The translations under genes were made by a program, and so were the position numbers. This document shows positions 1 to 62,000 of a stretch of 64,000 nucleotides of DNA, piece by piece. Below the pieces are notes generated by a model that saw only the letters and a list, made by a program, of their open reading frames with translations, was not told where the DNA came from and ran no database searches. Numbering within the stretch: position 1 is the stretch's first letter; the number at the start of each line of letters is the position of its first letter. Origin of the DNA: Branchiostoma floridae. Taxonomy: Eukaryota > Chordata > Leptocardii > Amphioxiformes > Branchiostomatidae. The DNA is taken from positions 9,734,779-9,798,778 of the forward strand of contig NC_049983.1 of assembly GCF_000003815.2 (NCBI RefSeq). Direction: 5' to 3'.

Positions 1-3000
1 GACAACAACCTACTGACACAACTGCCGGAAGCAATCACTACTCTACCTAATCTAAATCACATTGACCTGTCAAAGAACAGTATTGACACATTGCCTGCTG
101 GATTCTCGAAGTTAACACTCCACAGGCTACACCTCCACAACAATAAATTCAAAGAGATACCAGAAGAAGTTTGTTCACTACTTCAGCTCCACACCTTTTC
201 CGTGACAAGCAACCCACTCAAGTATCTCCCTGACAATATATCTCAACTAACAGGACTGAGAACCATGTACATCGGTAGATGTCAGTTTTTAGAGTTCCCC
301 AGACAAGTGCTGCAGTTGGAGGGTCTACAGGAGCTATATATGGGGACCTGGACTGGTAAAGGCAAACCATCACCCGTACCTGAAGACATCGGCAGACTGA
401 AGAACTTACAAGTCTTGGACCTGCAGAATAGTAGCTTGGCGTCACTGCCTGATAGTGTTGGGGAATTGATGCAGTTGAGGCACTTAAATATCTCTGCAAA
501 CAAATTCACATCAGTTCCTGACTCAATCATGAACCTGTCCAACCTTGAGAAGCTAAACATGTCAGGTAACAGAATTTCCCACCTTCCCCTGACTCTGATC
601 CGATTGGCCAAACTAAAGGACATGGGCATCTCTGAAAACCCCCTGACATACCCTCCTCCTGATGTCTGTCGGATTGGTACAGCCGCCATCATGGACTTCC
701 TGAGAAGAAAGTTGAAGGAAAAAGAAGATGGTATGTAATATGAGGATTCTGGAGAAAAGTTTGATAAAGGGTCAATCAATTAGAAAGACGTAATGTAAAT
801 GTATTAGTTACTATGCATGTGCCACAAGCAACATTTGTAGCTTTTTGTTGATGTAGAACAAGTAGTTATAATATGGATCATTATAGATATGCCTCAATAT
901 AGATATAAGGTGAGAAACTGTGACTGATAAGCTGTGTTACCGTGTAGATTATATGTAGATAAGATCATGCAATATGCTTTAATGTAAAAGTTGTCTGAAT
1001 ATGAAAGCTTATTACTCTCTTTAATGCAGGCTAGAATTGCTCGCTCGCATCTAACCACAGTCATATCGATGTTTCAGGGAAAGACCTGAGGAAACGTCTC
1101 CACCATTTCTCACAAAACGTGACTGAAACGCGCGAGGTGGAAGGTCTCGGTGTCGCACTTCAACTTACGGCAGATGAGATGACGTCCATTACCCAAGTAA
1201 TACTTTTGGTCACTTGAGCATTTGTGCATGAAAACTCTATACATCACTCAGAAACGTGGTGTATACAAACTCTCAGAACAACGTATGCCTGTAACAATGT
1301 TGTTGCTTAGCCTACGTTTTATAACTACATGAGTAACTAGAATAGAACATACCTCCTACAAAATACAACAACCATTGTGTCACAGCGTCCAATGTAAACT
1401 CTTATACTTTAAGGGTTCAAGCAACCAAACCCCGAGTTACCAGGCCTATAGCGTGCTGTTGAAGTGGATGGAGAAAGACCGAGAAGCGTCGGTGGACAAG
1501 CTTCAGCAAGAGCTGAGTGACTTTGGCATGGACCTGCTAGCACAGGAGGTTGGCAGGATTGAGGTATTGGCACCAAGTTGTTTTCAAGGTCTAAAAAAGT
1601 AAGTTTGATATAAAAGTCTGTATTTTCACCTTTAGCTGACACGTTTCAGTAACGACGGACTTTGTTTTACAGGCTCGGCCAGGTAAGCGACCGGCAGAAA
1701 CATCAGCTGGACCGCCAGCCAAGCGATCGGCAGCCGGAGAGTTTTATCTTGACGGGCATCAGGACGAACAGCCACCGGAGGAAAACTGCACTTCGAGAGC
1801 CCTGGTGGAAGAACAACAAGGCAAGAAGCCAAGAAATCGAGGTAAGCTTGCTGGACATGAATGCTACCTGGAAAAGGCACATTGCTTTCTGAATTACTTC
1901 GGCAGGAACACATGAAAAAAATGATTGATTGATTGATAGATAGATAATGACGATAATAATAACAAAAAAATTGAAACAGCTTCCAACTATCCTAGTTAGA
2001 GAGCTTAGCTACTGTCAATATTTACATGTGCTGCGTGTGAAGTGAGACAGATAATAAGTCGAAATTCTCACTAAATTTACACAGCTCTCTGCAGCTTGTA
2101 TTATGTAGCTTGTATTTAAGACGTCTTAAGATTTAAAAGATAGCAAAGGTTTCTCAGCGTCCATACAAATACATGACATGAAAAATACTCTCAACGTTGT
2201 CATCCATGCTTTGTTTTCAGGATCTGGAGCTAAGCCTATAGTGTTGCTGCTCAACGATGAGTATGGGACTGCAAAGGGCGGCATATCCACCGTCCACTAC
2301 CAGATGACGTCACTACTGGCTTTCAAAGGTGCAGAGGTCTATTCTACAGTCCTGAGTGCCACAGAAGACGATAAGAAGGATGCAGCTGCTGATAGCGTTC
2401 AGCTCATCTTTCCAAAAACATCCAAACGTGACAAGAGAGAGCCCTGCCTTGATTGGCTGACCTTTGACCATAAGGCTCGTTATCCAGACCTTCCTCTAGT
2501 CGACTTCATCGTCGGTCACGTGCCCATCACAAGCCATGCAGCAAGACAAATCAAGGAGCAACGTTTTCCTGACGCTAAACTCGTCCAAGTCACGCATGTG
2601 ATGCCAGAAGACACCAACCAGTACAGGAGCGATGAGAGGGTGTTGAGCATTGGAGACGAGCAGAAAAACATTCTTGAAGACCTGGAACATGCTGACGTAA
2701 TCATCTCAGTAGGACCATACTTGCATGACTACTACAAGCATGAGACGAGAGATTTCAAACCTCACTTCGAGTTCCTTCCTAAGCCCTCCGATATCTTCAG
2801 CACAGCAAAGTGCAAATACGTTGATACCAGTGTGAAAGTGGTTCTATCCATCGGCAGGGTCAAGGGTGTGGAGAAGCTGAAAGGATACGATCTGGCCGCA
2901 ATGTCCATGGGCAAGGTCATCGTAGCACACCCCGACGCCAAATGGCGAGCCCACGGCATAAGTGCTGAAGATTTCCAGGAGAGCAGGGATATCATCCAGG

Positions 3001-3407
3001 CCAACGCGAGTAACATCCATTTCACCCCCCTGAAGTACGGCACACAGGACGAGCTGCACAAGGACATGGAAAAGGCAAACGTCGTGCTGATGCCGTCACG
3101 TGCAGAGCCATTCGGCCTGATTGGTCTGGAGGCCATCGCTGCAGGGGTGCCGGTCCTGGTTTCCCACAAGTCTGGTCTTGCGAAGTTCCTGAAGACACAA
3201 GACCCCGAGTTCGACCGCACGATCGTAGAGATCGAAGATGATGACGATGAGGCCGCCAAAACCCTGTCCAAGCGCATCATCAAGATTCTGTCGGATGGAC
3301 ACAGAGAGTTTCGGGCCGCACAAAGTTTGAAGGAGAAACTTTTGGCCTCGAAGTACTGGGCTGCATCACACACCAGTTTCCTCGAAACATTTGGTCTGGA
3401 AGGCTAG
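1..3407 (+). CDS. LRR - Death domain - GT4-type glycosyltransferase fusion protein (5' end outside window)
   Basis: Five exons join in phase: 1-730, 1078-1196, 1414-1563, 1673-1841, 2221-3407 (stop TAG). Exon 1 gives about ten leucine-rich repeats of the LxxLPxxI type (e.g. NLQVLDLQNSSLASLPDSVG), ending in a basic FLRRKLKEKE stretch. Exons 2-3 form a Death domain: LRKRLHHFSQ, then LTADEMTSI, and the helix pattern LLKWMEKDREASVDKLQQEL followed by DLLAQEV. Exon 4 is a Pro/Lys-rich linker with PGKRPAE and PPAKRSA, which could be nuclear localisation signals. Exon 5 (395 residues) is a GT-B fold glycosyltransferase: it opens VLLLNDEYGTAKGGISTVHY and carries the GT4 donor-site signature EPFGLIGLEAIAAGVPVLVS with the E-x7-E spacing. 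Known: LRR and Death domains sense and relay innate-immune signals. Inferred: an intracellular immune receptor or effector using sugar transfer. The start codon lies upstream. The acceptor before exon 3 (TTTAAG) is ordinary but not strong. Confidence 0.88.
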
Positions 3408-3855
3408 CTTATAACCACATTGCTTTGATGCCTGCCAACATGTTACATCTGCCTGTTGATTGTCTCTTTTAAAGTTATATCATGGCCTTCAGAACCCAAA
3501 AATATTCATGTAGGTACAAATCCTGACTCTTGATCAAACTTATATCATCTTACCACCTATTCATACATTCTGAACTCTTGCAAACATGGCAATGAGGAAA
3601 ACAATTGATATAACATAACATCCACGCTTTGTAATTTAGAAGAGAAGAAGCTTGCAATCATATAGGTCTAAGGGTTCTTACAGTTCATTCCATTTTTATT
3701 GGCACTGCTGAATATTGACTTCCAGCTGGATTCCATATCATACTTTATATTTAAAGTTGTCAATCTAGTGCAAAACTATGATTTTAGAGTTGGTTGAAAT
3801 TAGAGATATGGTAGTATTCTTTATGTATTTTTAGAATGATGATTGTAAAGCTCCT

Positions 3856-3882
3856 AATAAAGATTGGAAAGCTTGAAATAAA
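3856..3882 (+). promoter_or_regulatory. Two AATAAA polyadenylation signals
   Basis: AATAAA occurs at 3856-3861 and 3877-3882, about 450 bases after the stop codon of the LRR-Death-glycosyltransferase gene, in AT-rich DNA without open frames. They are the likely 3' end of that transcript. Confidence 0.5.
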
Positions 3883-4691
3883 AAATATTGCTTATGAAAT
3901 ATGCCACATATGCCAGGTTGTATGGTTTGAGCTGCCTCTACCTGTACGTCTGCTCAGCAAGGAATGTAGTTTTGTACAGATGGTGTGAGACAATGTAATT
4001 ACTGTATATCTATTGTGGAAGAAATATGTGATTGACATTTGTTGTAGTTGATTTTTTCAATTGAATCTAGTCTTCTTCAAGGAATGAACAGATGTCAGAT
4101 GACAGATGTAAGTCATGGTGTCAGACAAAATCATGCAATCTTGGCGACGACATAAGATCTACAGCCTTATAACTTCTTTAGAATAAACTCAACAAACACA
4201 TTCAGAGGAAGGTCACAAATCCCTGAAAAATCCGATTTTTCATAGATAAGTCTTTATAGAAGGTCAAAGCTAGACAATCAGTCGTTTGAAAATTCCTGCT
4301 ATCTTATCACGAATAAAACCTCAGAGAAGACAACTTATTGGCTTCTCAGCTAAACATCAATGTCCCCAAATCCCTTTGGAGCCAAAACTCAAAGACATAC
4401 ATGTACGTGTTCCAAGTCAAGACAATAAGTAAACTAAGATATTAGGTTTGCCAAAAAGACTAAATTTAAAAGCCTAATCCCATATAAGCCACAAACGCTG
4501 ATAGAACTCTGACATAACAACAAGCAAAGACTCGTTCAAGGACCAGATTACAATCTTTGGCAAAAATGAAACTAAACAAAGGAGCAGCGGTAGGCTGATT
4601 GATGTCATGGTTATAGTCTACGGTGTGCCCTAGTTTACTAAGAGTACTCAAAAGCTTGTAACAGAACCACAGATACGTAGCTGGTATGTAC

Positions 4692-7600
4692 ATGGTGTCT
4701 CGTACAGTTCGGGCCATAGCTGAAGACCTCACCTTCGACATCGCGTCAGGGATCACCATGGATGACTCTTTGAGGGACGGTATGACGGGAGTCAGTTCAA
4801 ATCCTGCACAAGGAAAAGCTGCTCTTAGGCCGGTTAGTTGTGATGGCAATCGCTGCATCGAGCCTTACGCTGTTAGTTATCACGAAGGTGGTGGTAATGG
4901 CGGAAATAGCGACTTGTCCACAGAGAATGGTGCTACGGCTTGGAATGTAGAAACAATAACCAACATAGTCCCGGGCAATGCAGATATTCAACCGTACGCA
5001 TTTTCATACATGTGTCAGGACCACATCGTATCCGTCGAGACAAGTTTGGAAGAGACGAAAGAACCGTTTCACCAAGGTGATGGCAATGGTGGAAATAGTG
5101 ACATATTCTCAGAAAATGGTGCTACGGCTGGAAAAGGACAAACAATAATCGACAAAGCACCGGGCAATGCAGATATTGAACCATATGCTTTTTCATACAT
5201 GTGTCAGGACCATATCGTATCCGTCGAGACAAGTTTGGAAGAGGCAAAAGAACCGTTTCAGAAAACAATCACGGCTGTAAGCAGCATCAAGGATGTTTCA
5301 ACTAAACTGGTGATATGTCACTCATCCAGGGTTGATGATGGCACTACTTTTGCCAGGGATAACCGTAATGTCCAACGGCTTCGACGTCCTCCAATTTCAC
5401 TTCATCCAAATCAGATGTACGCACAAAAGGACATTGCCGAGCTAAACGTTCATACCGAACCTCCACTGCAGAAAACAAGAATGGCTTTAAGCAGCAGCAA
5501 TGATGTTTCAACCGAACTGGTGGTATGTCACTCATCCAGGGTTGATGTAGACACTACCATCGCCAGGGATGACCGTAATGTCCAACGGCTTCGACATCCT
5601 CCAATTTCGCTTCATCCAAATCAGATGTACGCACAAAACGACAGTGCCAAGCTAAACGTTAATACAGAACCTCCGTTGGGGTCAGCAAATAGTGGTGGCA
5701 AAAGCTGCACCAAGTCATGTGTTGTTCAGTATCAGACCGGAGATAAAAATGGCGATGTTGAAATACCTACCAAAAGCAATTCTGCATCCGAAGACGAAGA
5801 AACATTCCACATCGTAAATTTTCATGTTGATATCATTGAACCATATGCCGTAGCTTACACCTACCATGATGACATTGAGGAATCTCCAGAAGAAATGACA
5901 ACCATGGAACCCTGTCAGAAAGCTAAAACGGCTTCAAGCAGCAACGATGATGTCTCGGCCAAATTGGTTAGATGTGACTACAGGAATGACGATGACACAA
6001 TGGGCTTTCCTGGGAATGACAGTGCAAGGCATGACATTCTTCATCCACCGAGTAGACTCCAACCAAATTCGATATGCGACAGTAACACACGGGACCCGAA
6101 TCTGTTGTACCATACATCAACTCTGAACTCGAATCCAACTAGTAAAGAGCAAAACAACCCGAGCTACGACTCACTGTCCCCGCAAAATGCCGAAAAGTCT
6201 AACTCGGCTTACGGGCAAAATAATCAACCTGACTTTCGCAGCACTGAGGTATCACAAAGTGAGGGCATCCTCCGAATCGACCCATATGCTATTCGATACC
6301 AGGAAGACGATGACATTAGCAGTGACATACGAACGCGTGGCCCTGTCGCTGAAAACGGACAAACAGTCGACATTGACCTTGGTGATAATGCGAATATTGA
6401 ACCCATTCAACCGTACGCTGTTGCTTTCGGATGCCAAGGCGACATGCCGTCTGACAAGAAGACAAAAGAGACTCATGACAAAGAATCGTCTAAGAAAACA
6501 ACTTCAGATAGCAACACCATCTCGACCAGCATGGCAGGAGGTGACTCACACCAGAATGATGCTGTAGACTCAGTGTCTAAAGGACAGGACAAGTGTAACA
6601 ATCTTCGACGTTCTCCGGATACATTTCATGCAAATCCGATGTACGCACGGAGCGACCTCATCCCTAATCCCATGTATGCACCAAACGTTGGCCAGCAAGC
6701 AATTAGAGGTAAGAAATGTCTACATGTATTTAATTAGCCTTTTGTTTTAGTTATTTAGCCCTGTGGGTTTGAGTGATGTATGTAAAAACCTCATTATAAT
6801 GTAAAAAAATGACATTTTTCTGAAGTTTTAGAATATGATGTCCACTTCAGTTTTGTTCATCATCAGAGAGGTGACACCAGCTGAAATCCACTTCTATCGT
6901 GAAATCAAATTAATGTCTCCCCAGCTAAAGCGCTCGTTATAATGTATTTCATTTGAAATGTTACAGGTGGAGAGAGATTTGTACGCTTTGTTTATTTTCT
7001 CTTCCTGAGAAAGTATTCTTTTGATTTTGTTTGCTTTCGTCTTGACGCTTTGAGATAGACTCTAAAGCCCTGCTTTGTACTCCAGTACAGTTCAATGGCT
7101 AATCATTGGTTCACAGCTGCCAAGTGCTCTTGCATATTCTCCAAGCTTTTAAGATCAACGCGAATTTGGGGGGCCACTTTCAATGATATCTGTGACCACA
7201 TTGTCCAGGAGCTGTTGCAGGAAGAAACGGGTACATGAATGAATGTCCTGCCAGTTGAATGTGTTTTTGAGACCGCTTCAGAGGTAGTACGTGTAGGAGT
7301 AGCTTGGCTGGTATGTGTTGTTTCCCTACAGGGAAGAGATGTTGCCTTGCTGTAGTGGCAGCTATTGTACTTCTGGTATCATTGACCACTGCTGGAGTCA
7401 TTCTTGCGATGTTCTTGAGTACACACGGTAGTCCACTGGTAAGATAGTTTATGTCTTTCTCGCTATTTTCTCCATCTGTTAGATGTTCCAGGAACCATTT
7501 TATACGAAGAGTCTCCTTACTTGTCATCACTAAAATAGACTTACAGCCAAATTTTGTACCCGTAGTCTTTATTTGTCAAGGAAGAAACAGTGGACCAGAC

Positions 7601-9342
7601 GTTGGCAATTGTAGTTCCATTATGATTTGACGTCCACCAACACCGATGGACTTCGAAGCTATGAAAAGTCTGCGTGAAGCTTCAAACAACAACGTGTACT
7701 TGCGAATAATTGTATTTTGGCGTAGTATGAATCTGACATGACATTTTAAAGTATACAGCAAAATCAATCCAAATGTTATTTTCCATGTTTCTATCGGCAG
7801 CATTGTGCACTAATTGTTGTTTTAGAATTAAAATTAGAGCATCGCATGAAGAAATGTATAATTAACAACATAGTTCCCTATCTAAAGGTGGCACAAACTG
7901 TGAACACCACCTACACAACTGGTCAGTCCGATATGAACACTACCTACATCCCTGGCCAGTCTGATCTGAACTCTACCTACATCCCGGGTCAGTCTGATGT
8001 GAACACTACCTACATCCCTGGTCAGTCTAATGTGAACACTACCTACACAACTGGTCAGTCTGGTGTGGACACCACCTACACAACTGGTCAGTCTGATGTG
8101 AACACTACCTACACAACTGGTCAGTCTGATGTGAACACTACCTACGCAACTGGTCAGTCAGATATGAACATTACAGACACAACTGGTCAGTCCGCAATCC
8201 TGTTTCAGTCTGATGTGAATACCTACATCCCTGACCACCCTGCTATCAGCAGTTCTATGGGAACGACAACATTAAAGCCCGTTTCAATTTCCACGGTGAG
8301 TATAATCTTCGAGTTATTCTTCCGTAAACGCATGAAGGTCTCAAACTAATTTTTTTCATCACCAACTCACTAATCCTTTCCACATTTGCCTTACCGAATG
8401 AAAGGTATACAAAAAAATGTAATGACTGTATTATAGCTATATAGCTTGATCGATGAAGGCACTCGATGGTCACCAATTTCAGCTACTCCTACCGGTAGAA
8501 ATGTCAATAGTCCACATTTTGGTATTATTTGATATTATCATATAGCCAGGCGCCGCGGACCAATCAGAAGGCCCCGTTCCACGTTGGTTATAACGCCGTA
8601 ACACATAGATTCCGGCCAGGCCGGTGTGTATCGCTCATCTGGTTGGTCAGAATGAATCGACACCGGCACCAGTGTCGATGCAAATCAACACCGGTGCCGG
8701 TGTCGATTCATTCTTACCAATCAGAAGGAGCGATACACACAAGAAAGTAAGGGATATGCAGGCATTGGCCAATCAAAGGAGCAAAACATTTGCCAGAGCA
8801 GAGGTAATAAGTACAGACTCCAAGGGGAATGGCTCCTGACATTGATAATTAGTTTTGTTGTTCTAAAAAGCCAAAGATTGCAATGTTTGGAATATTTTCT
8901 GTGGAAATTTTGGTTTAAAAATGCAATCTGTAATCTCCTCACAAATGTAAGTACCAAAGAACAAATGTGAAATTCGACAAAGGAATTCAAACGTATAGTA
9001 CCAATGGGATCTATGCGTCATACAGGAGTTTGCAAGTTTGGGTAGGCTATATGATAATAACGATAATGACCCGCCTGTTCCTCGGTGTACATGGTGTTAC
9101 AACGCCTGGTCCTTTGCTATAACCACCTCATAAAACCACCTCGTTCGCTTCGCTCACTCGGTGGTTTTATTCGGTGGTTCTAGCAAAGGACCAGGCTTTA
9201 TGACACCATATACACATCGGGGCGGGTCATTAACCCTTATTTAATCCACAGGTGAGTTCTACCGATGGCTCATCTGGTAATGGCTCTTTGGGGGAAGCAT
9301 TAACCACCGTGATGCCATGGTTGAAAAGAAGACGTCCAACAG
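4692..9342 (+). CDS. Single-pass membrane protein with tyrosine-motif N-terminal tail and 11-residue repeat stalk, paralog 1
   Basis: Exons in phase: 4692-6708, 7332-7438, 7888-8295, 9252-9342; the 3' end is open. The ATG at 4692 is chosen because paralog 2 conserves this one; another lies two codons upstream at 4686. Exon 1 gives about 672 hydrophilic residues without a signal peptide. It carries repeated IEPYAFSY/IEPYAVAY/IDPYAIRY motifs and NPMYA, NQMYA, NNPSY sites, resembling SH2/PTB docking tyrosines. Exon 2 is KRCC then a helix (AVVAAIVLLVSLTTAGVIL), so lysine/arginine precedes the membrane span. Exon 3 is about ten copies of an 11-residue unit like VNTTYIPGQSD with many N-x-T/S sequons. 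Exon 4 ends MPWLKRRRPTG, a furin-like site. Inferred: type II receptor, tail inside. I recall similar tails on amphioxus lectin-like proteins, but no lectin domain follows here. Confidence 0.8.
7897..8230 (+). repeat. 33-bp coding repeat (stalk of paralog 1)
   Basis: About ten tandem 33-bp units encode variants of NTTYIPGQSDV or NTTYTTGQSDV. The last units are decayed (NITDTTGQSA). Two subtypes, IPGQ and TTGQ, are grouped rather than mixed, suggesting local unit spread. The paralogous array is at 14852-15115. Confidence 0.9.
8624..8740. repeat. 117-bp imperfect palindrome in intron 3 of paralog 1
   Basis: Arms GTGTGTATCGCTC (8624-8636) and GAGCGATACACAC (8728-8740) are exact inverses. A second inner pair, GAATGAATCGACACCGGC (8650-) and GCCGGTGTCGATTCATTC (8696-8713), extends the stem. 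No counterpart was seen in the paralogous intron, so it is probably a small inverted-repeat insertion. Confidence 0.7.
9064..9232. mobile_element. Inverted-repeat (MITE-like) element, 169 bp
   Basis: Ends TAATGACCCGCC (9064-9075) and GGCGGGTCATTA (9221-9232) are perfect inverses. Further in, GCCTGGTCCTTTGCTA pairs with TAGCAAAGGACCAGGC, and CCACCGA-type arms surround the centre. It sits 19 bases before exon 4 of paralog 1, so its 3' end is next to that exon's splice acceptor. It is absent from paralog 2. The family was not identified. Confidence 0.75.
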
Positions 9343-9861: not shown

Positions 9862-11584
9862 ACAATTTTATCACAATCGTTTCTTGTACAACGGCCATAC
9901 TGGGTAACATTCTGCACCGTGTAAAATTCTATGAACATGAGTCTGTGACAGAAATTTAAAGTTTGAACACTCAGCAGCACGATATGTTTATCACGAATCA
10001 TTTGATACCAAAAACACTTTCAAGAAAACTGGGGAGTTTTCGAAGACACTTCTGAGCTTGTATACGAATCATGTAACATTTGCTGTAACAGTTACAAATC
10101 ATTGGTTATTAACTGTCAACGGTGAAGTTTGATTATTGTGATGATGCGAGCATGGCCAAAAGGTCAGGAAGGATTATTTACGGTTCTCATTTTGATCATT
10201 TCCAGTTGAGCAGCAAAGAAAACCGGAAAAAGCCTAGCGAGGTGGTGATGACTTGTAATTTGACAGGTAGCCACAAGTGGTCGTGTCTGCTACCAATGTC
10301 GTAATTGTAACTGAGATGGTCAACAAGTGACTCCAAGCCCTTTGCTTGGAATAGAAGATACCCGTCTTGCCTGTTTCACATGCGCCAACGTTCCCTTATG
10401 TAAAGGAAGAAAGGAAAGCTCTGATCAATATACTTCGAACATGGTTCAAAAGACTGCGGCCACAGAAGAGAACTCTTATGAAATGACTGTGTTTGTATAT
10501 GGCGCGCGTGGGAGTGTGTGTGTTGTGTGACCACTGTGTGTACTGCTTCAGTGACCACTTCATAGTATAGATGTCTTAAAAAGGGCCAAAATATTGTGTT
10601 TTGACAAAATGTCAAGTTTATTCTCTGCACTCACCAAGGTAACATTTTATGGGCACTATTCAAGAAACTGGCTTCTTCTTAAAGAGGTCAGAACCCCGCG
10701 TGTAATAGTGACTTGTGATTGGAAAACATGGCACAGTGGTGTACGAAGCCAAAGCTTGTTGGGGGCATGCTTCTTCCCTGAGGAATGATTATAACGCCCT
10801 GTAACGCCCTGATGTTAATATCCTCTTTACAACATTTTTTAGGAAATCTGATTCTGTGTCTAGGATTCTTCGTCCAATGACACTAAGTGTCCAGGAGTTT
10901 CAATATGTCAATGTTGTTGAACTTTGGCTTTTATTTCATATTGCAACATCCAACAATGGAATTTCAAAGGCAAAGATCATAGTCTCTTTAGACTAGAAAC
11001 GTTTGCAGACGTAAGTCATGGGGTTAGACCATAATCATGCAATCTTGGCGTCAACATAACATCTATATACTAAAGCCTTTTAACTTCTTTAGAACGAACT
11101 CAACAAACATATCCATATGGAGTGACAGGTCCAAGGAAACCCCTTGTAGAAAGCCAAACCTACACAGTAGTTAGAATTGTCTAGGTTTGACATAGAATAC
11201 ACCCGTTTTATTTTCGCGACGATTCAAAGTTTCACTGACAACACACGTACTTCTCAGCTACATATCAAGGCCCTTAAATCACTTTGGGGCTAACATACCC
11301 AGACAATACATGCTTGAAGTCAATATGTAATAGATGTGATATGTAAAAAATCAAAGTTTGCCAGAAAAAGTATAGCTAAAGCATAATCTCATATAAGTCC
11401 CAGACGCTGTTAAGACTCTTTAAAAACAAGCTAAAAGTTCAATTGACATATTGTGAACCTTGGCAAATAACAAAACTGAACAGGGGAAAAGTGGCAACCG
11501 GTTTAATATCATTGGCATAGACTCCCTGTGTGTGCTCGAGTGTACTCCAGAGTAGTCACTTCATTTTAACCAGTAGTTGTGTAC
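9862..11584. other. Between the two paralogs: duplicated flanks, no gene seen
   Basis: 9880-10560 is alignable with 18690-19330 in copy 2 and is probably the old 3' flank or 3' UTR of the duplicated gene. 10995-11584 matches the 5' flank of paralog 1 and should hold the promoter of paralog 2. Short open frames here are not conserved between the copies. Confidence 0.55.
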
Positions 11585-14500
11585 ATGGCCTCCAGTATCA
11601 GTGCAGTCGGGACCATGGCTAAAGACAACACCAACATGGCATCAAGGATCACCATGAGGGACGGTATGACGGGAACCAGTTCAAATCCTGTACCTGGAAA
11701 ACCTGCTCTTAGGCCGGTCAGTTGTGATGGCAATCACTGCATCGCCCCTTACGCTGTTAGTCATCACGAAGGTGATGGCAATGGTGGAAATAGCGACGTG
11801 TCCACAGAGAATGGTGCTACGGCTTGGAATGTAGAAACAATAACCAACATAGTCCCGGGCAATGCAGATATTGAACCATACGCTTTTTCATACATTTGTC
11901 AGGACCATATCGTATCCGCCGAGACAAGTTTGGAAGTTGCGAAAGAACCGTTTCACGAAGGTGATGGCAATGGTGGAAAAAGTGACGTGTCCACAGACAA
12001 TGGTGCTACGGCTTGGAATGTAGAAACAATAACCAACATAGTCCCGGGCAATGCAGATATTGAACCATACGCATTCTCATACATGTGTCAGGGCCATATC
12101 GTATCCGTCGAGACAAGTTTGGAAGAGGCAAAAGAACCGTTTCGGAAAACAAGAACGGCTTTAATTAACATCAATGAAGTTTCAACCAAACTGGTGAGAT
12201 GTCACTCATCCAGGGTTGATGTGGACACTACTATCGCCAGGGACGACCGAAATGTCCAACGACTTCGACATCCTCCAATTTCACTTCATCCAAATCAGAT
12301 GTACGCACAAAAGGACATTGCCGAGCTAAACTTTCATACCGAAACTCCACTGCAGAAAACAAGAATGGCTTTAGACAGCAGCAATAATGTTTCAACCGAA
12401 CTGTCGGGATGTCACTCATCCAGGGTTGATGTAGACACTAACTTCGCCAGGGATGACCGTAATGTCCAACGACTTCGACATCCTCCAACTTCGCTTCATC
12501 CAAATCCGATGTACGCACAAAACGACAGTGCCAAGCTAAACGTTAATACAGAACCTCCATTGGGGTCAGCAAATAGTGGTGGCAAAAGCTTCACCAAGTC
12601 ATGTGTTGTTCAGTATCAGACCGGAGATAAAAATGGCGATGTTGAAATACCTACCGAAAGCAATTCTGCATCCGAAGACGAAGAAACATTCCACATCGTA
12701 AATCTTCATGTTGATAACATTGAACCATATGCCTTAGCTTACACCTACCATGATGACATTGAGGAATCTCCAGAAGAAATGACAACCATGGAACCCTGTC
12801 AGAAAGCTAAAACGGCTTCAAGCAGCAACGATGATGTCTCGGCCAAATTGGTTAGATGTGACTACAGGAATGACGATGACACAATGGGCTTTCCTGGGAA
12901 TGACAGTGCAAGGCATGACATTCTTCATCCACCGAGTAGACTCCAACCAAATTCGATATGCGACAGTAACACCCGGGACCCGAATCTGCTGTACCCTGCA
13001 TCAACTCTGGACTCGAATCCAACTAGTAAAGAGCAAAACAACCCGAGCTACAACTCACCGTCCCCGCAAAATGCCGAGAAGCCTAACTCGGCGTACGGGC
13101 AGAATGATCAACCAGACTTTAACAGCACTGAAAGTGAGGGCATCCTCCGAATCGATCCATATGCTATTAGATACCAGGAAGACGATGACATCAGCAGTGA
13201 CATACAAGCGCGTCACCCTGTCAGTGAAAACGGACAAACAATCGACATCGACCTTGGTGACAATGAACCAATTCAACCGTACGCTGTTGCATTCGGATGC
13301 CAAAGCGACATGCCGTCTGTTAAGAAGACAAAAGAGACTCATGAAAAAGAATCATCTAAGAAAACAACTTCAGATAGCAACACGATCTCGACCAGCTTTG
13401 CGGGATGTGACTCGCTCCAGAATGATGCTGTAGACTCAGTGTCTAAAGATGAGGGCAAGTGTCACGTTCACAATCGTCGACGTTCTCCGAATACACTCCA
13501 TGCTAATCCGATGTACGCACGGAGCGACCTCATCCCTAATCCCATGTATGCACCAAACGTTGGCCAGCAAGCAATCAGAGGTAAGATATGTCTCCATGTA
13601 TTTCATTAGCCTTTTGGTTTTAGTTATTTAGCCCTGTGGGTTTGAGTGATGTATGTAAAAAAACTCATTATGATGTAAAAAAGTGACATTTTTCTGAAAT
13701 TTTAGAGTATGATGTCCGCTTCAATTCTGTTCATCATCAGAGAGGTGACACCAGGTGATAGGCATTTTCAATACTTTTCCCAAATCAACTTGGTGTTTTG
13801 AGCTGAAGCGCTCGTTACAATGTATTTCATTTGAAATGCTGGAAGTGAATAATAGACTGGAGAGATTTCTAGCCTAGGTTTTGTTTCTTTTCTCCTCCTG
13901 AAAAAGTATTCCTTTGATTCTGTTTGCTTCCGCCTTGACGCTTTGAGATACTGTACTTGACAATAGCCACGAATTGAAAATTATTAAGAAGCTTAATAAG
14001 ATATGCTCTAAAGCTCTGTATTGTTCTTCATTTCAGCGGCTAATCAATTGTTCACAGCTGTCAAGTGATCTCCCATCTTCTCCCATCTTTTAAGACTCGG
14101 GGCATTTGGGGCCCCTTTCAGTGATACCTCTGATCAACATTGTCCAGAAGCTGTTCCAGGCAGAAGCTGTTACATGAATGAATGTCCTGCCAGTCGACTG
14201 TGTTCTTGAGACCGCTTCAGAGGGAGCTTGTCTTGGCATAGCTTGGCTGATATGTGTTTTTCTCCAAAGGGAAGAGATGTTGCTTTGCTGTAGTGGCAGC
14301 TATTGTACTTGCGGTGTCATTGACCATCTGTGGAATAGTTCTTGCGATGTTCTTGAGTACACACGGTAGTCCACTGGTAAGCTAGCTTATGTCTTTCATG
14401 CTCTTTTCTCCCCCTGGGCCCTGTTAGATGTTCCTGTAACCATTTGATACGGAGAGTCTCTTTCTGAATGAAAGTTGCACTGTAATTACCATGACAAAAA

Positions 14501-15689
14501 TGGACTTAGCCAAATTGTCTACTGCCCACGCGTAATCTTTGTCAAGGAATGAACAGAAGTTGGCGATTGCAGATCCACTTGGATTAAGAATGACTTCCAA
14601 CAACACCGATGGACTTTAAAGCTTCTTCGTGTAGCTTCAAACAAGTTATACTTGTGCATGATTGTATTTTGGCGTAGTGTGAATCTGACATGACACTTTA
14701 ACGTATATAGCAAAATAAATCCAAATGTTATTTTCAATTTTTCTATCGGTAGCATTTTTGCTTTAATTGTTGTTTTAGAATTTAGAGTCAGTCAGAGCAT
14801 CACATCAAGCACATAATTAACAACATAGTTCCCTATCTAAAGGTGGAACAAACTGTCAACACTACCTACGCAACTGGCCAGTCCGATGTGAACACTACCT
14901 ACATCCCTGGTCAGTCTAATGTGAACTCTACCTACATCCCTGGCCAGTCCGATGTGAACACTACCTACATCCCTGGCCGGTCTAATGTGAACTCTACCTA
15001 CATCCCTGGCCAGTCTGATCTGAACTCTACCTACATCCCTGGCCAGTCTAATGTGAACACTACCTACATCCCTGGTCAGTCTGATGTGAACACTACTTAC
15101 ATCCCTGGCAACCCTGCCTTCAGCAGTTCTAAGAGAACGACAACGCTTAAGCCCATTTCAATTTCCACGGTGAGTATAATCTCGGAGAGAATTTTGAATA
15201 AACGCCTCAACGTCTCAAATTAAATTGTTAGTTTTCTGCATCACTAACCCACTAATCCTTACCCAGAAAGATGTGTGCAAATCAATGGAATGACTTTGTA
15301 CTATATCTTGATCTAAGCACCCACTGAGACCACTGGTCATCAATACCAACTACTCTTACCGGTAGAAAATGGCAACAGCCCACCAACAGCCCACATATTG
15401 GTAAAAAATGGGATAGCGGGGGTGTTATCCATTTATTTTACCAATAGGAGATTCAAGAATTAACTTCTGGTGAAAGATGAGTTTTATTTTGCACCCATGC
15501 ATTAGAACACCTCTTTGTAGTTAGCACGTGTTTCCAAAATGATTATTTTCAGGACTAAAAAACATGGGATTAATAACCAATCCTATCCACAGGTAAGTTC
15601 TACCGATGGCTCATCTATAGCTGGCAATGGCCCCTTTGGGGAAGCATTGCCCACCGTGATGCCATTGTTGAAGAGAAGACGTCCAATGG
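11585..15689 (+). CDS. Single-pass membrane protein with tyrosine-motif N-terminal tail and repeat stalk, paralog 2
   Basis: Exons in phase: 11585-13580, 14270-14376, 14843-15169, 15593-15689; the 3' end is unresolved. The ATG at 11585 opens MASSISAVG. The 665-residue tail matches paralog 1 nearly throughout: IEPYAFSY, IEPYALAY, IDPYAIRY and IQPYAVAF motifs, NQMYAQ, NPMYAQN, NPMYARS and NPMYAPN sites. One internal block (PYAFSY...KEPF) is repeated, as are two HSSRVDVDT...MYAQ blocks. The TM exon reads KRCCFAVVAAIVLAVSL. The stalk has about eight 11-residue units, nearly all of the IPGQ subtype, against ten mixed units in paralog 1. Exon 4 ends MPLLKRRRPMG, keeping the basic cleavage-like site. 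Inferred topology: N-terminus cytoplasmic, stalk outside. A transposon lies four bases inside the following intron. Confidence 0.8.
14852..15115 (+). repeat. 33-bp coding repeat (stalk of paralog 2)
   Basis: Eight tandem units encode NTTYIPGQSDV-like sequence with N-x-T/S sequons. They are more uniform than the array at 7897-8230, which suggests recent homogenisation. Confidence 0.9.
15396..15446. repeat. Short hairpin in intron 3 of paralog 2
   Basis: TATTGGTAAAAAATGGGATA and its near inverse TATCCATTTATTTTACCAATA face each other around a G-rich centre. No further sign of a mobile element. Confidence 0.5.
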
Positions 15690-43200: not shown

Positions 43201-46200
43201 GCGAAACAAACACATTGTTATAATTATTGTTATCATCATTGACTATTATCATCATAATGTTTACAGTATTGGAATGATGAATACCTGACGTGGAACGCCA
43301 CAGAACACGGCGGTGTGGACTCATTAAGCATCCATTCTTCTGACGTATGGAGGCCTGACATCTTTCTCTTCAACAAGTGTGTAGTTTTGAAATGATGATA
43401 GCACTTCACACCTCACTGTAACTGTTGTAAAATTAAGACCATTAATATCTAAATACGATAAAGGGTTGGTTTTCCATTGGCACTATGGTGGTTTTATTTT
43501 GTATCTTAAATAAAGTCACCGAGTTCGTTTTGTTGACTTAAATTATCGTCTCCCCTTTTATTCGTCGTGACAGCATAGCCGAGACGTACGGTAACATAGA
43601 AGCCATCACTGACGTCACAGTGACCAGTACAGGACGGGTGACGCATCTCCAGCCCACCATCTTCACCAGCGCATGCCCAGTGGACATTTCAAGGTTTCCT
43701 TTCGACAAACAGGTAGCTACAAACGTCCTGTTCTTGGTGATTATTATCATTCTTTTAGGATGCTAAAGCGACGTATGTACCTGGAAGGGCAACTTTGTTT
43801 TTGCTCCGTTACTTCCTGTTCGTCTTCTCCAAACAAAGTTCATTGACTTGCACCAGTGACTGATAAAAAGTCACTCAAGGTGTATGAAGGTGTGTGTCTG
43901 TGGAGGGGGGGGGGTAAAAGTACCCGCGGCAACTTTGACGTCGGATCACTGCCGAAAGTGTGCTAGGACTACAAAACTTGGTGCCGTTTTCTAAACAATT
44001 TTTAAAAACGTTAACAATGGTACGAAAAAACTATGAGTTTGTGATTTGTCGTGTTGCCATGGCATATTTTAGCAAATTTACTAAATTCACTTTAAATAAT
44101 GTTTCAATGTTTTGTTGCTAAACCACCTGTTTTCCGACATCATCAACATTATATGTAATTTCTATGTTACATTTATGATTAAATACTCATGATATATGGT
44201 AATGAGTATATCATCCCTGCAAATTTGGTGATCGTAACCCAAGACGTTTTGAAATTACGCGGGGGGGGGGGCACCACCCCATCACCCCCGGCCCAGGTCT
44301 AGATAGAGTTAATAGGCTAGAACATATTTTGTGAAGGTAAACATAATATTATGTTTGCAAATACGATATTTCTAGTGAAACTTGTATAATGGCCTCTGAT
44401 AAATCAAATTTGTATATATTTCTGCTTTTTGCTCACCTTTATAGTGGGAGACGCATTACAGTTTGTTTCCTCGCCCAAAATTATTCGACATTGCCTTTTT
44501 TCACAGGAATGCACTCTTGAGTTCGGGTCCTGGATCTACAATGCAGGCAAGCTGAACATGTCCCAAGTGAAGTCCAAGGCAGATCGCAGTACGTTCACTC
44601 CGAGTGTGGAATGGATTGTGAATGGAGCGCCTATGAAAAGAAAGGTAACAGACAGGAACGCAAGGTTTTACAATGACAAGAAAGCTTCTTGCATATACTC
44701 ATGTCCAACATAGGCCAAATGCATTATGTAAACGATGTGCTTTGTCGACATGCATATTTTACATGCATCTCCTCTCTTCTTAAGTGTAAACGAATAAGTT
44801 TCGTCAGGTTGGTAAGTTACTGAATTCGTGACTCCTTTATTTTTGGTAACGCATTGAAAACCTAATTAACCACATAATGTATAAATACTTAACATTTGGG
44901 ACAGCATTTGCAAGCGGCGACATCTACGCTGCAGTGCAATGTGAACCAGTCAGAATTGCCCTGAAGATGACGACAGACGGTACTAAACGGATTTACAGAG
45001 GTTTTTTCTTTCATTTCTACGTTGTTGGATGCATGTTTCCACAGGTGGATTTCTATCCCTGCTGCCCCCACCCCTTTGTCACTATCCTCATCATCCTACA
45101 ACTGGAACGTCGGTCCTTCTTCTACATGTTCAACATGGTGCTGCCCTGCGCCATCCTGATGATTCTGAACGTGCTCGGCTTCTACATCCCCCCGGACAGC
45201 GGGGAGCGGCTGGGCTTCTTCATGACCATCCTGCTGGCTCTAGTCGTCTTTCTTCAAGTTTTGTCGGGATCCTTGCCAAAAACGTCAACGACTGTTCCAC
45301 AGCTGGGTAAGGCTTCTTTCATATGACGTTTGATTGTTTTCTTGTTCACCTTGTGGTGCCAATTGGCACATATATGGGGCTCATATAGTAGGAGCCTAAA
45401 AGTCCGCGGTGGCCAATTTCACGCCTCTGCCGGCTGAAGTCCTTCCCCAGTTTATGTTACTGTTTTATGCCACCGGAGGAATCTGCTTGGAGATTAAGGG
45501 AGATATCCTATCTCCCATTCTGTTTCTGATTGTGATTGATTGAGTTATGCGAGAAACAACATCAGAGCATCTTAGAGGTATAAAGTGGACCCCCAGTACC
45601 CACCTCGAAGATCTTGATTTTGCTGATGATCTCGCAGCCCTATGCCTAGCTTCTATGCATCACCAGTTACAGGAAACTAGTCTCCTTGATAAACATGTCA
45701 AACAAACTGGTCTGTACATCAATAAGAAAAAGACCCAAGTAATGTGCATTAACACACCTACAGTGCCTCCCATTTGTATTGATGGGGAGCTTCTGGAGTG
45801 TGTGGAAGACTTAACATATCTAGGCAGTGTTATGAGTGCGGATTGTGGAGCACAAAAGGATATCCAGGCCCGACTTGGCAAAGCTAGAGGTTCCTTCAGT
45901 CGCCTCCGTGTTATTTGGAAATCCAAATCATTTAGCCTGAAAACCAAGCTCAAATTGTATAACAGCAATGTAAAGTCTGTCCTTCTGTATGGCTCTGAGT
46001 GCTGGAGAGTTACAAAGTCAGACATGAAGATAATTGATGTATTTCACAATAGTTGTCTGCGTAGAATATGTGACTTCTACTGGCCAAATAAGATCAGTAA
46101 TGAAGAACTGTATAGAAAAACGAACACAAGACAGTTGTCTACTGAAATTGCCATCTGAAGACTGAAATGGTTGGGCCATGTTCTGCGGATGTCGGGTGAC

Positions 46201-59041: not shown

Positions 59042-62000
59042 TTTTTTTTTTTTTTTTTTGTCAATATGACTTTATTCGGGTCCAACAGCAGTACATTATG
59101 ATTGTTACAAATCTAACGTCCGTACATGAAGTAGTGGCTGGATACATATAGCTTATTGTCTAGCCCAGAACCAAGGTGGTTCATACAGTATAGAACTTAC
59201 ACACAAGCCACGTAAATTGCTTAACAAAGCAAGTAGCAAATAAACATTTTGTTGTACACAGTTTCTCTACTCAATGATTTTACAAGTTTGCACATCTTGA
59301 GTGAGAGCTGTAAATAAATACAATACATTGTGGTTTCTAAGTAACTCCTTGTTGTCTTTATATCTGATCCACGATATGGCGTATTTTGCAAGAGTAACAT
59401 AAAAGTTACCTCCAAAAAGTACAGAAGCTGTAGTATTGATGGCTATGTTAATGCCAGATTGGGAAAGCAAGTGTTTAACTTCGTCCCAATAGCCTCTTAA
59501 CCTTACACACTCAAAGAACATATGTGAATAATTTTCGTCTTGGTTACAGATCGCACATTTAGGGCTGTAGATAGTCCCAGAGGTGTCTACTATTTTCCAT
59601 TTATGAAGTAAGAATCTGCAAGGGAGGATTTTGTGCAATAATTTAAAGTTAAACTCTTTCAACTTATTCTCTTTTAACTTCAGGGTGTGAGATCTCCATA
59701 TATTCGTCCAATTTAAGTTAGGAAATATGCTATCCCAATAAGCTTGAGAAGAAGGTTTTGTTAGGGTTTTGGCGAGACAAAGAGAATACAAATATTTACT
59801 ACTGAGTTTTACTACTGGTATTTTACAAAAATTAATCCAAATCATGTAATCCTCCTTGCAAACTTTTCTCTTAAAATTTTTATTTGACCAAATTCTATCA
59901 TCATTAATTTTTGCAAGATCCCTCCTCCCCCCTCCAAGTTCCTGCCAGGCCATGACTACCTCCCTATAAAAGGGTGGTAGTTGTGTCAGGGGTGGGGCAT
60001 TTCTTTTAACATTAAAGTTACATCTAAAAATATTACAGTATTTTCCGAGTTTTTCAATAAAGTGTAAGGGTATTACTTGCCATCGTCTTATGTTATCTTG
60101 ATTTGTCTGTAGCAATCTCTTTACCCATGACGCTTGTAAGCTTTTACACTTGGAATATATGTCTGTCATTTTGATTCCCCCGTCGGTATAACTGGAATAT
60201 AGTGCTGTACGCTTTATTTTGTCAGGTTTGTTGTCCCAAAGAAATGAGAAGGTTAATTTCTGAGTTTTCTTAAGTACCCATTCTGGGGTTGGAATCATAA
60301 ACATGTTGTAGATAATTTGAGACAGGGCTAAAGTTTTTATAACATAACATTTTCCATATAAAGTTAATTTGCGTTTCTGCCACCTTCGAAACATATTTTC
60401 AATTTTATTTATCCGTTTGTCCCAATTTAAGGTTTCGCATAGTTCTTCTGAAAGGCTGAAGTATAGTCCCAGAGACTTGATAGGTGTCCCCGGCCATGTG
60501 ATACCAAAGGGTTTGTCTCTGCGGTGTTGGAAGGACCCTATCCATAGTGCTTCGCACTTTTTAAGGTTCAATCTGGGTCCTGCGACTTTACTAAACTTAT
60601 CTACAATGTTAAGGGCAGTTTGTATTGAAAGGTCATCCGACAGTGTAAGTGTAGTATCGTCAGCAACTTGACTGATCTTTACTTCATACTCAAGATCGTG
60701 AACCTTGACCTTGATTCCTTTAATTAAATCGGTATGTCGAATTTTAAGTGCCAGTATTTCTACAACTAAATTAAATAAAAGAGCAGAGAGTGGACAGCCC
60801 TGCCGGATGCCACGCTGCAGTTTGAAAAAGGCTGTCTTCCAGCCGAAGTTAGTCAAACAACATTCAATATCTGTATACATCATTTTCACCAAGGAAATAA
60901 AATTTGGTCCAAAGCCAAATTTCTGAAGGGTTTTGAGCATGAAGTTCCAGTTCACCATATCAAAAGCCTTTTGAAAGTCGAGGCAAATAATGGCTCCAGG
61001 AATGTTATAATGGTTGCAGTAATATATAACATCATGTATAACACGGACATTCTGACCGATAAATCTGTTTTTCAAATACGCTGTTTGGTCGTGTGAAATA
61101 AGGTTGGGTAGAGCTGCTTGGAGTCTTTTCGCCAGAGCAGCTGCCAACAACTTATAATCAGTATTAAGGAGACTAATGGGTCTCCAGTTAGCGAGATCTT
61201 TTCTGTCTCCCTTCTTAAAGATAAGTTTAAGGACTGCTCTTTTTTGAGACGGAGACATACATCCCTTTTCCATAGATTCTTTGAGAGCATCAAAAACAAA
61301 GTCTCCAATACTGTTCCAGAAAGTAAGATAGAATTCGGCGGGAAGTCCGTCCGTTCTTGGGGATCTATTTGTTTTCATAGCTTGCAAGGCCTCAAAATAT
61401 TCCTCCTTTTCTAGAGGTTTCTCAAGAATCAATTTTTTATGTTCGGAAAGGCTGGATTCTAGCTCAACAGTCTCTAGGAACATATCAATTTCCCTGTCAG
61501 AGACTGAACAGTCGCTGGTATATAGACGTTCATAGAATGATTTTTCTAACTGTAAGATTTTCCCCTGGTCTGTTACATCAGTGTCTCCATCACTCAGTTT
61601 TGTAATATTATTGTTTGCAGCTTGCCATTTTTCAAGGTTGAGAAAATAAGAGAGAGATTTTTCTCCCTTCTCAGTCCATTCTGCCCGTGCTCTAATTTGT
61701 GCACCTCTGGCTTTTGACTGGTAGATTTCCTCAATCTCAGTTTTTATATTTCAGCCATACCATAGGTATGGTGAAATATATTGTATTCGTAATGTTTCTT
61801 TCTTTCTTTCTTTCTCCTGCCAAATCTTCAAATCGAATCAACTCCGCCGTTTTTTAACCGATTGACTTGAAATTTGGCACAAAGGTAGAGTAAGTCAATA
61901 CCCTCAGGTGTTTTTTTCATTTTTTTCATATCTGCCTTTGAAATGATTTTATTGAGGTTTTTGTCAATTTTTATGTATATTTTGGGCTCCTGTACCCTGG

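Follow-up and report, generated by a model that had tools for sequence, protein, structure and literature searches.

We analysed a 64,000-nucleotide stretch of the Branchiostoma floridae genome (contig NC_049983.1, positions 9,734,779 to 9,798,778 of the forward strand), called the window here and numbered from its first base. The first 3,407 bases hold a predicted five-exon gene that would join leucine-rich repeats (LRRs), a Death domain and a glycosyltransferase of the Pfam family PF20706 ('GT4 in conflict systems') in one chain. The first-pass annotation of this stretch had proposed such a combination of an LRR sensor, a Death adaptor and an enzyme with a GT4 donor-binding signature. That fusion is real as a sequence prediction: the five exons, all at the coordinates of that annotation, join in frame, Pfam finds all three domains, and the judgement of the enzyme was broadly right. 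The features of the gene are as follows.

1..730, forward strand (+): exon 1, LRRs; 5' end cut by the window edge, open from base 1
1078..1196, forward strand (+): exon 2, N-terminal half of the Death domain; starts in phase 1
1414..1563, forward strand (+): exon 3, C-terminal half of the Death domain; phase 0
1673..1841, forward strand (+): exon 4, linker of about 57 residues
1842..2220, forward strand (+): intron 4, phase 1; the join of adaptor and enzyme
2221..3407, forward strand (+): exon 5, complete PF20706 glycosyltransferase domain and stop codon
3090..3131, forward strand (+): donor-site motif MPSRAEPFGLIGLE, whose E-x7-E glutamates are residues 295 and 303 in the exon-5 peptide
3856..3882, forward strand (+): two poly(A)-type signals AATAAA (at 3856 and 3877), 3' of the stop; pattern scan of bases 1-4600

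Introns 1 to 4 all begin with GT, end with AG and have phases 1, 0, 0 and 1; the spliced frame of 2,355 bases encodes 784 residues followed by a single terminal stop (3405-3407). Splice sites were scored with simple textbook weights taken from general knowledge, and percentiles are relative to the sites in the window. The donor of intron 1 (GTATGT) lies at the 97.8th percentile of window GT sites and its acceptor at the 96.4th. Intron 2 is weak at both ends (donor 82.7th, acceptor 82.8th), and intron 3 pairs a weak donor (87.3rd) with an acceptor at the 96.4th percentile. No site in or near intron 4 outscores its donor (GTAAGC, score 6.6) and acceptor (7.4); each lies at the 99.8th percentile, and as a pair they rank first of 17. 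Out of 119,646 splice-site combinations, assembled from the best-scoring sites for each intron and from the annotated sites where these were missing, 16 stay open from base 1 to the stop at 3407. Nine of the 16 were inspected; all nine use the joins 730/1078 and 1841/2221, and they vary in the amount of exons 2 and 3 retained. The model presented here is ninth by summed splice score. In most of its competitors, which score slightly better, exon 2 stops at 1136 or exon 3 has its start at 1444 or its end at 1548; the model was kept because such shortening would remove part of the sequence behind the full Death match. Exon 4 (169 nucleotides) passes the frame from exon 3 to exon 5, and tblastn of the LRR, Death and glycosyltransferase parts against the window returned the gene itself only, with no local paralogs. 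On these predictions, it is very likely that the five exons form one mRNA.

In exon 1, successive repeats lie 22, 23, 23, 50, 23, 23 and 23 residues apart, i.e. mostly 22-23 with one 50-residue gap. Pfam searches with the joined chain matched LRR_14 (E 2e-25), LRR_8 (E 5e-20) and LRR_4, and the repeats extend to about residue 215. The Death domain (PF00531, cut-off 22.6 bits) begins at residue 248 and ends at 331; it scores 27.1 bits in the whole chain, 30.5 in a 146-residue piece and 32.6 in the 89-residue piece formed by exons 2 and 3, where positions 1-84 of the 86 in the profile are covered. Exon 2 alone gives no match and exon 3 alone gives 21.1 bits, below the cut-off, so the Death match requires the exon 2/3 join. 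A sequence search of the Death part against the PDB found no relative, with a single designed protein at E 0.12, and NCBIfam returned nothing for the Death piece. Exon 1 hit LRR effectors of plant pathogens in NCBIfam, for instance XopAC (113.9 bits, cut-off 450), and these hits were dismissed as shared LRRs only. The linker in exon 4 is enriched in A, P, E, R and G and carries one spaced basic pair (KR...KR); a nuclear-signal reading of this pair was judged weak, with one such pair in 57 residues.

The domains match the exons: the LRRs occupy exon 1, the Death domain exons 2-3, the linker exon 4 and the enzyme exon 5. The Death-linker block is flanked on both sides by phase-1 introns. A single-exon enzyme next to such a block is suggestive, in this one gene, of assembly by exon shuffling, and the arrangement fits an enzyme ultimately of bacterial kin that was joined in this way. 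PIDD1-type proteins have LRRs and then a Death domain, with ZU5/UPA between them. The window gene has the LRR-then-Death order in common with them, whereas it shows no ZU5/UPA match between the two and has an enzyme added.

Exon 5 matches PF20706 at 249.5 bits over profile positions 1-381 of 385 (Pfam cut-off 26), and in the joined chain the match spans residues 398-772 (247.4 bits, E 3e-73). The generic profile Glycos_transf_1 (PF00534) reaches 57.2 bits on the same exon, far under the PF20706 score. By its best Pfam family, the predicted enzyme is therefore more specific than a generic GT4. As controls, three ordinary GT4s also pass 26 bits, at 36-61 bits and over a partial profile. NCBIfam matches of exon 5 were all below cut-off, and three PHROGs matches were weak and partial. 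An AlphaFold2 model of exon 5 (pLDDT 88.5, pTM 0.88) has as its top PDB matches enzymes such as MshA, BshA and sucrose-phosphate synthase, which we take to be GT-B enzymes, and the modelled domain has the GT-B fold.

Bacterial and viral relatives of the enzyme were sought in several collections. Exon 5 retrieved seven plasmid records by tblastn, all below 60% identity, and one partial phage record; two rhizobial plasmid proteins are longer than 1,600 residues, and in both the enzyme is C-terminal and the N-terminal part resembles an NTPase by eye. Single-protein scans of genome contigs and viral contigs found no close relatives. An alignment-led scan of GTDB genome contigs matched 195 stretches; a relative is encoded in 117, of which the best 80 loci were retained (L numbers below, which also label rows from viral contigs). 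The alignment-led scan of viral contigs gave 27 loci, and the three that were scanned with Pfam are ordinary GT4s. Among 32 of the best 80 bacterial loci that were opened (L061 is not one of them), the enzyme is C-terminal, within 106 residues of the end, in 26 and N-terminal in five, and one locus has an in-frame stop. PF20706 was recovered in all 20 bacterial proteins scanned with Pfam. Partner domains above cut-off included NB-ARC (L034, L037 and L046), AAA_22 (L041 and L048), CATRA-N (L031 and L045), VMAP-M0 (L037), TIR (L046) and TPRs. Proteins such as L034 (NB-ARC-TPR-GT4), L046 (TIR-NB-ARC-GT4) and L031 (CATRA-GT4) thus have the enzyme family in common with the window gene, at 24-32% domain identity. 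The bacterial proteins combine it with NTPase, CATRA, TIR, TPR or no recognised partner, in contrast to the LRRs and Death domain found here. Two of them are close architectural parallels to an adaptor-enzyme chain, namely L046:4657-7173 (TIR-NB-ARC-GT4) and L033:5194-7194 (a sub-threshold EAD1 with GT4).

For conservation, exon 5 was aligned with 29 bacterial domains from the 80 loci, a set without L053, L059, L061, L062 and L064-L110 (47 loci). A profile of these 29 domains gives exon 5 246.7 bits, under its 29 builders and over 28 other rows (20-206). Five of those 28 rows (L064, L082, L098, L065 and L076) also match PF20706, at 256-289 bits versus 249.5 for the window. In a 58-row maximum-likelihood tree, from which L053, L062 and L023 were left out, exon 5 falls within a 31-row set together with bacterial conflict rows (93/90), apart from six GT4s of viral contigs (100/100). 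Only L005, L009, L015, L016, L018 and L020 are fair outgroups in this tree, L005, L009 and L015 being those scanned with Pfam. Row L004, the seventh from viral contigs, sits in the second bacterial branch.

In the alignment, 28 columns are invariant among the bacterial domains and exon 5 keeps 21 of them, including GG at 19-20, R212, K220, E295 and E303. Both glutamates of the E-x7-E pair are invariant in 29/29 bacterial relatives and align with glutamates of the solved GT4 chain 2jjm_A; the donor-binding signature named by the first-pass annotation is thus retained. Columns conserved at ≥90% are kept in 12 of 15 cases. By a manual count, the N-terminal half keeps 13 of 20 conserved positions and the C-terminal half 20 of 23, a small difference. 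GT-B enzymes bind the donor with the C-terminal half and the acceptor with the N-terminal half. Since the C-terminal half retains more positions and binds the donor in such enzymes, one possible but weak reading of the alignment is that the donor site is conserved and the acceptor side altered. We consider it quite likely that the predicted enzyme is catalytically active.

Conflict-type GT4s have been described in animals. According to the text of Kaur et al. 2021 (PMC8195603), GT4-TRADD-N-LRR proteins are common to cnidarians, hemichordates and cephalochordates, Acropora digitifera has >500 GT4 paralogs, and the nearest relatives of the metazoan GT4s lie in bacterial conflict contexts; the proposed role is to modify invader molecules or block interactions. 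Those proteins likewise combine a conflict-type GT4 with Death-type adaptors and LRRs, in a group of animals that by name includes the cephalochordates. Their order is GT4, TRADD-N and LRRs, whereas the window gene runs from LRRs through Death (PF00531) to GT4 last, and TRADD-N has no Pfam match in the 784 visible residues. The text of PMC4083563 (citing Hamada et al. 2013) and of PMC12314368 mentions coral proteins that combine NACHT/NB-ARC with a group-1 glycosyltransferase; according to PMC12314368, those with LRRs often have NACHT in mid-chain. Like the window gene, they place immune-receptor parts and a group-1 glycosyltransferase in one chain, with LRRs in some; unlike it, they carry NACHT or NB-ARC, for which Pfam shows no match in the 784 residues from within the LRR exon onward, the region before the LRRs lying outside the window. 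As far as these texts go, the proposal of the first-pass annotation that glycosyltransferases on immune proteins are an invertebrate theme agrees with the literature.

Other passages add context. Glycosyltransferase enrichment is described as a general coral feature (PMC6214176), other domain fusions such as LRR-caspase are noted for amphioxus immunity (PMC2575513), and in two Branchiostoma species Death is reported to top the domains over-represented among dispensable genes (PMC12373286). The LRR-Death-GT4 order was not found in the passages of open-licence PMC text examined, a scope outside which fall figures (among them 4F and 6A of PMC8195603, which might show it), source data and supplements. 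Judged from such text, GT4 in invertebrate immune proteins is already published, and the LRR-Death-GT4 order is a variant on that theme.

We favour reading the predicted product as an animal intracellular conflict (immunity) protein built as sensor, adaptor and effector, and give this a probability of about 0.6. The LRRs would recognise an invader-derived or damage-derived molecule, and the Death domain would then cluster the protein or dock it into a Death-domain complex. The GT4-conflict enzyme at the C-terminus would in turn use a nucleotide-sugar donor to glycosylate a target close by, which could be a molecule of the invader or a local host protein. The joined frame, the three domains, the domain-exon fit, the enzyme family and the kept donor-site residues are established directly, and the order from sensing through clustering to glycosylation is what we infer from them. 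An effector is proposed because enzymes of this family also form the C-terminus of STAND, CATRA and TIR defence-like proteins in bacteria. The role of the window enzyme is probably defence. The first-pass annotation had suggested sugar-based signalling, and in this respect it is not followed here, as PF20706 points first to a conflict effector common with bacteria and not to a signalling enzyme. A more specific version, in which Death clustering switches on the fused bacterial-type enzyme, the immune output is a sugar mark on Death partners or the sensed invader, and the protein is an exon-shuffled, NTPase-free animal counterpart of STAND-GT4, appears rather unlikely as a whole.

Several results weigh against the sensor-adaptor-effector reading, and some of them lead to other explanations. 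The splice pairs of the gene model are outscored in introns 1-3, where they rank 6th of 23, 13th of 17 and 9th of 18, and an ATG at 2178 in predicted intron 4, in frame with the enzyme, could be the start of a stand-alone enzyme. The locus would then comprise two adjacent genes, one with LRRs and Death that stops after exon 4 and a GT4 gene starting within intron 4, with an enzyme frame that is open from 2130. This is improbable in view of the join itself: the strongest donor and acceptor of the region fall exactly at 1841/2221 with fitting phases, exon 4 keeps the frame, exon 5 starts near the domain start, and the pattern scan found no AATAAA from 143 to 3855. The window also opens inside LRR exon 1, which leaves a visible chain of 784 residues without its N-terminus. 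The chain could therefore be the C-terminal part of a larger NLR-like receptor with, for example, NACHT upstream of the LRRs, and the coral glycosyltransferase group 1 proteins with LRRs often have such a domain in mid-chain (PMC12314368). The visible residues contain no NACHT. Repeats of the NLR type measure 28-29 residues, against a spacing of 22-23 here, and NLRs do not usually place a Death domain behind their LRRs, so that we regard this receptor as an unlikely source of the chain.

Other points against the favoured reading concern the enzyme and its relatives. Seven of the 28 invariant positions are changed in exon 5 (W14, R26, L28, G104, G187, R244 and W348), as are N25, P93 and G296 among the columns conserved at ≥90%, and with these changes the acceptor or activity may differ from that of the bacterial members. 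A catalytically dead domain, acting as a sensor of sugar or nucleotide-sugar or as a scaffold, would accommodate them, the more so as they are somewhat denser in the N-terminal half. It is not probable in our judgement, as E295, E303, R212, K220 and the GG loop are all retained. PADLOC defence models match neither exon 1 nor exon 5, and several bacterial proteins (L035, L040, L052, L055 and L063, for example) have no recognised partner domain. The tree branch of exon 5 is long (2.38) and joins another long branch, which makes its exact neighbour unsafe. Neither LRR nor Death (PF00531) was detected in any of the 20 bacterial proteins scanned (E 0.001; E 0.01). The absence of Death there also bears on the suggestion of the first-pass annotation that the enzyme glycosylates Death domains, its own or those of partners, with the sugar mark itself as the signal. 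Its comparison with bacterial effectors that glycosylate Death domains would be an analogy. One chain holding both parts would bring a Death partner close, but the bacterial members of the family do without a Death match, and we consider this the least probable of the alternatives.

For the sensor-adaptor-effector reading, the GT4-conflict identity makes the fusion more coherent, but keeps it within a published theme. The role of the animal GT4-conflict enzymes is only predicted in the text of PMC8195603, and the literature text examined reports no measured activity or target. With its own sensor and its own Death adaptor in one chain, the window gene would allow the question of whether Death clustering turns on sugar transfer, and to which target, to be tested in one protein. 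If it does act in this way, the known outputs of innate immune complexes in animals (proteolysis, phosphorylation, NAD cleavage) would be joined by glycosylation, with bacterial relatives at hand for comparison.

Elsewhere in the window, 4103-8145 and 11006-15100 form a duplicated stretch with 82% identity. Each copy has a long single open frame (4662-6734, 691 residues; 11570-13606, 679 residues) with 189-bp and 210-bp tandem repeats, two copies each, and recurring tyrosine motifs such as EPYA and NPMYA were noticed by eye in the frame at 4662-6734. Neither frame matched a Pfam family above cut-off, and they may be repeat-rich signalling tails. Downstream in each duplicate, at 7899-8192 and 14854-15109, lie 33-bp tandem repeats with an 11-residue unit in about 8-9 copies. 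A run of N at about 22900, an assembly gap, appears as X in translated frames. Repeated pieces of neurotransmitter-gated ion channels, apparently several gene copies, occupy both strands of 30800-57850; Neur_chan_memb is above cut-off in four of them and Neur_chan_LBD slightly below in one. Retrotransposon remains with an 827-codon reverse-transcriptase frame were detected at 59270-61750 on the reverse strand (-) (RVT_1 at 113 bits, zf-RVT short of its cut-off), and a smaller retrotransposon piece at 45544-46155 on the forward strand (+) matched DUF6451 and, weakly, RVT_1.

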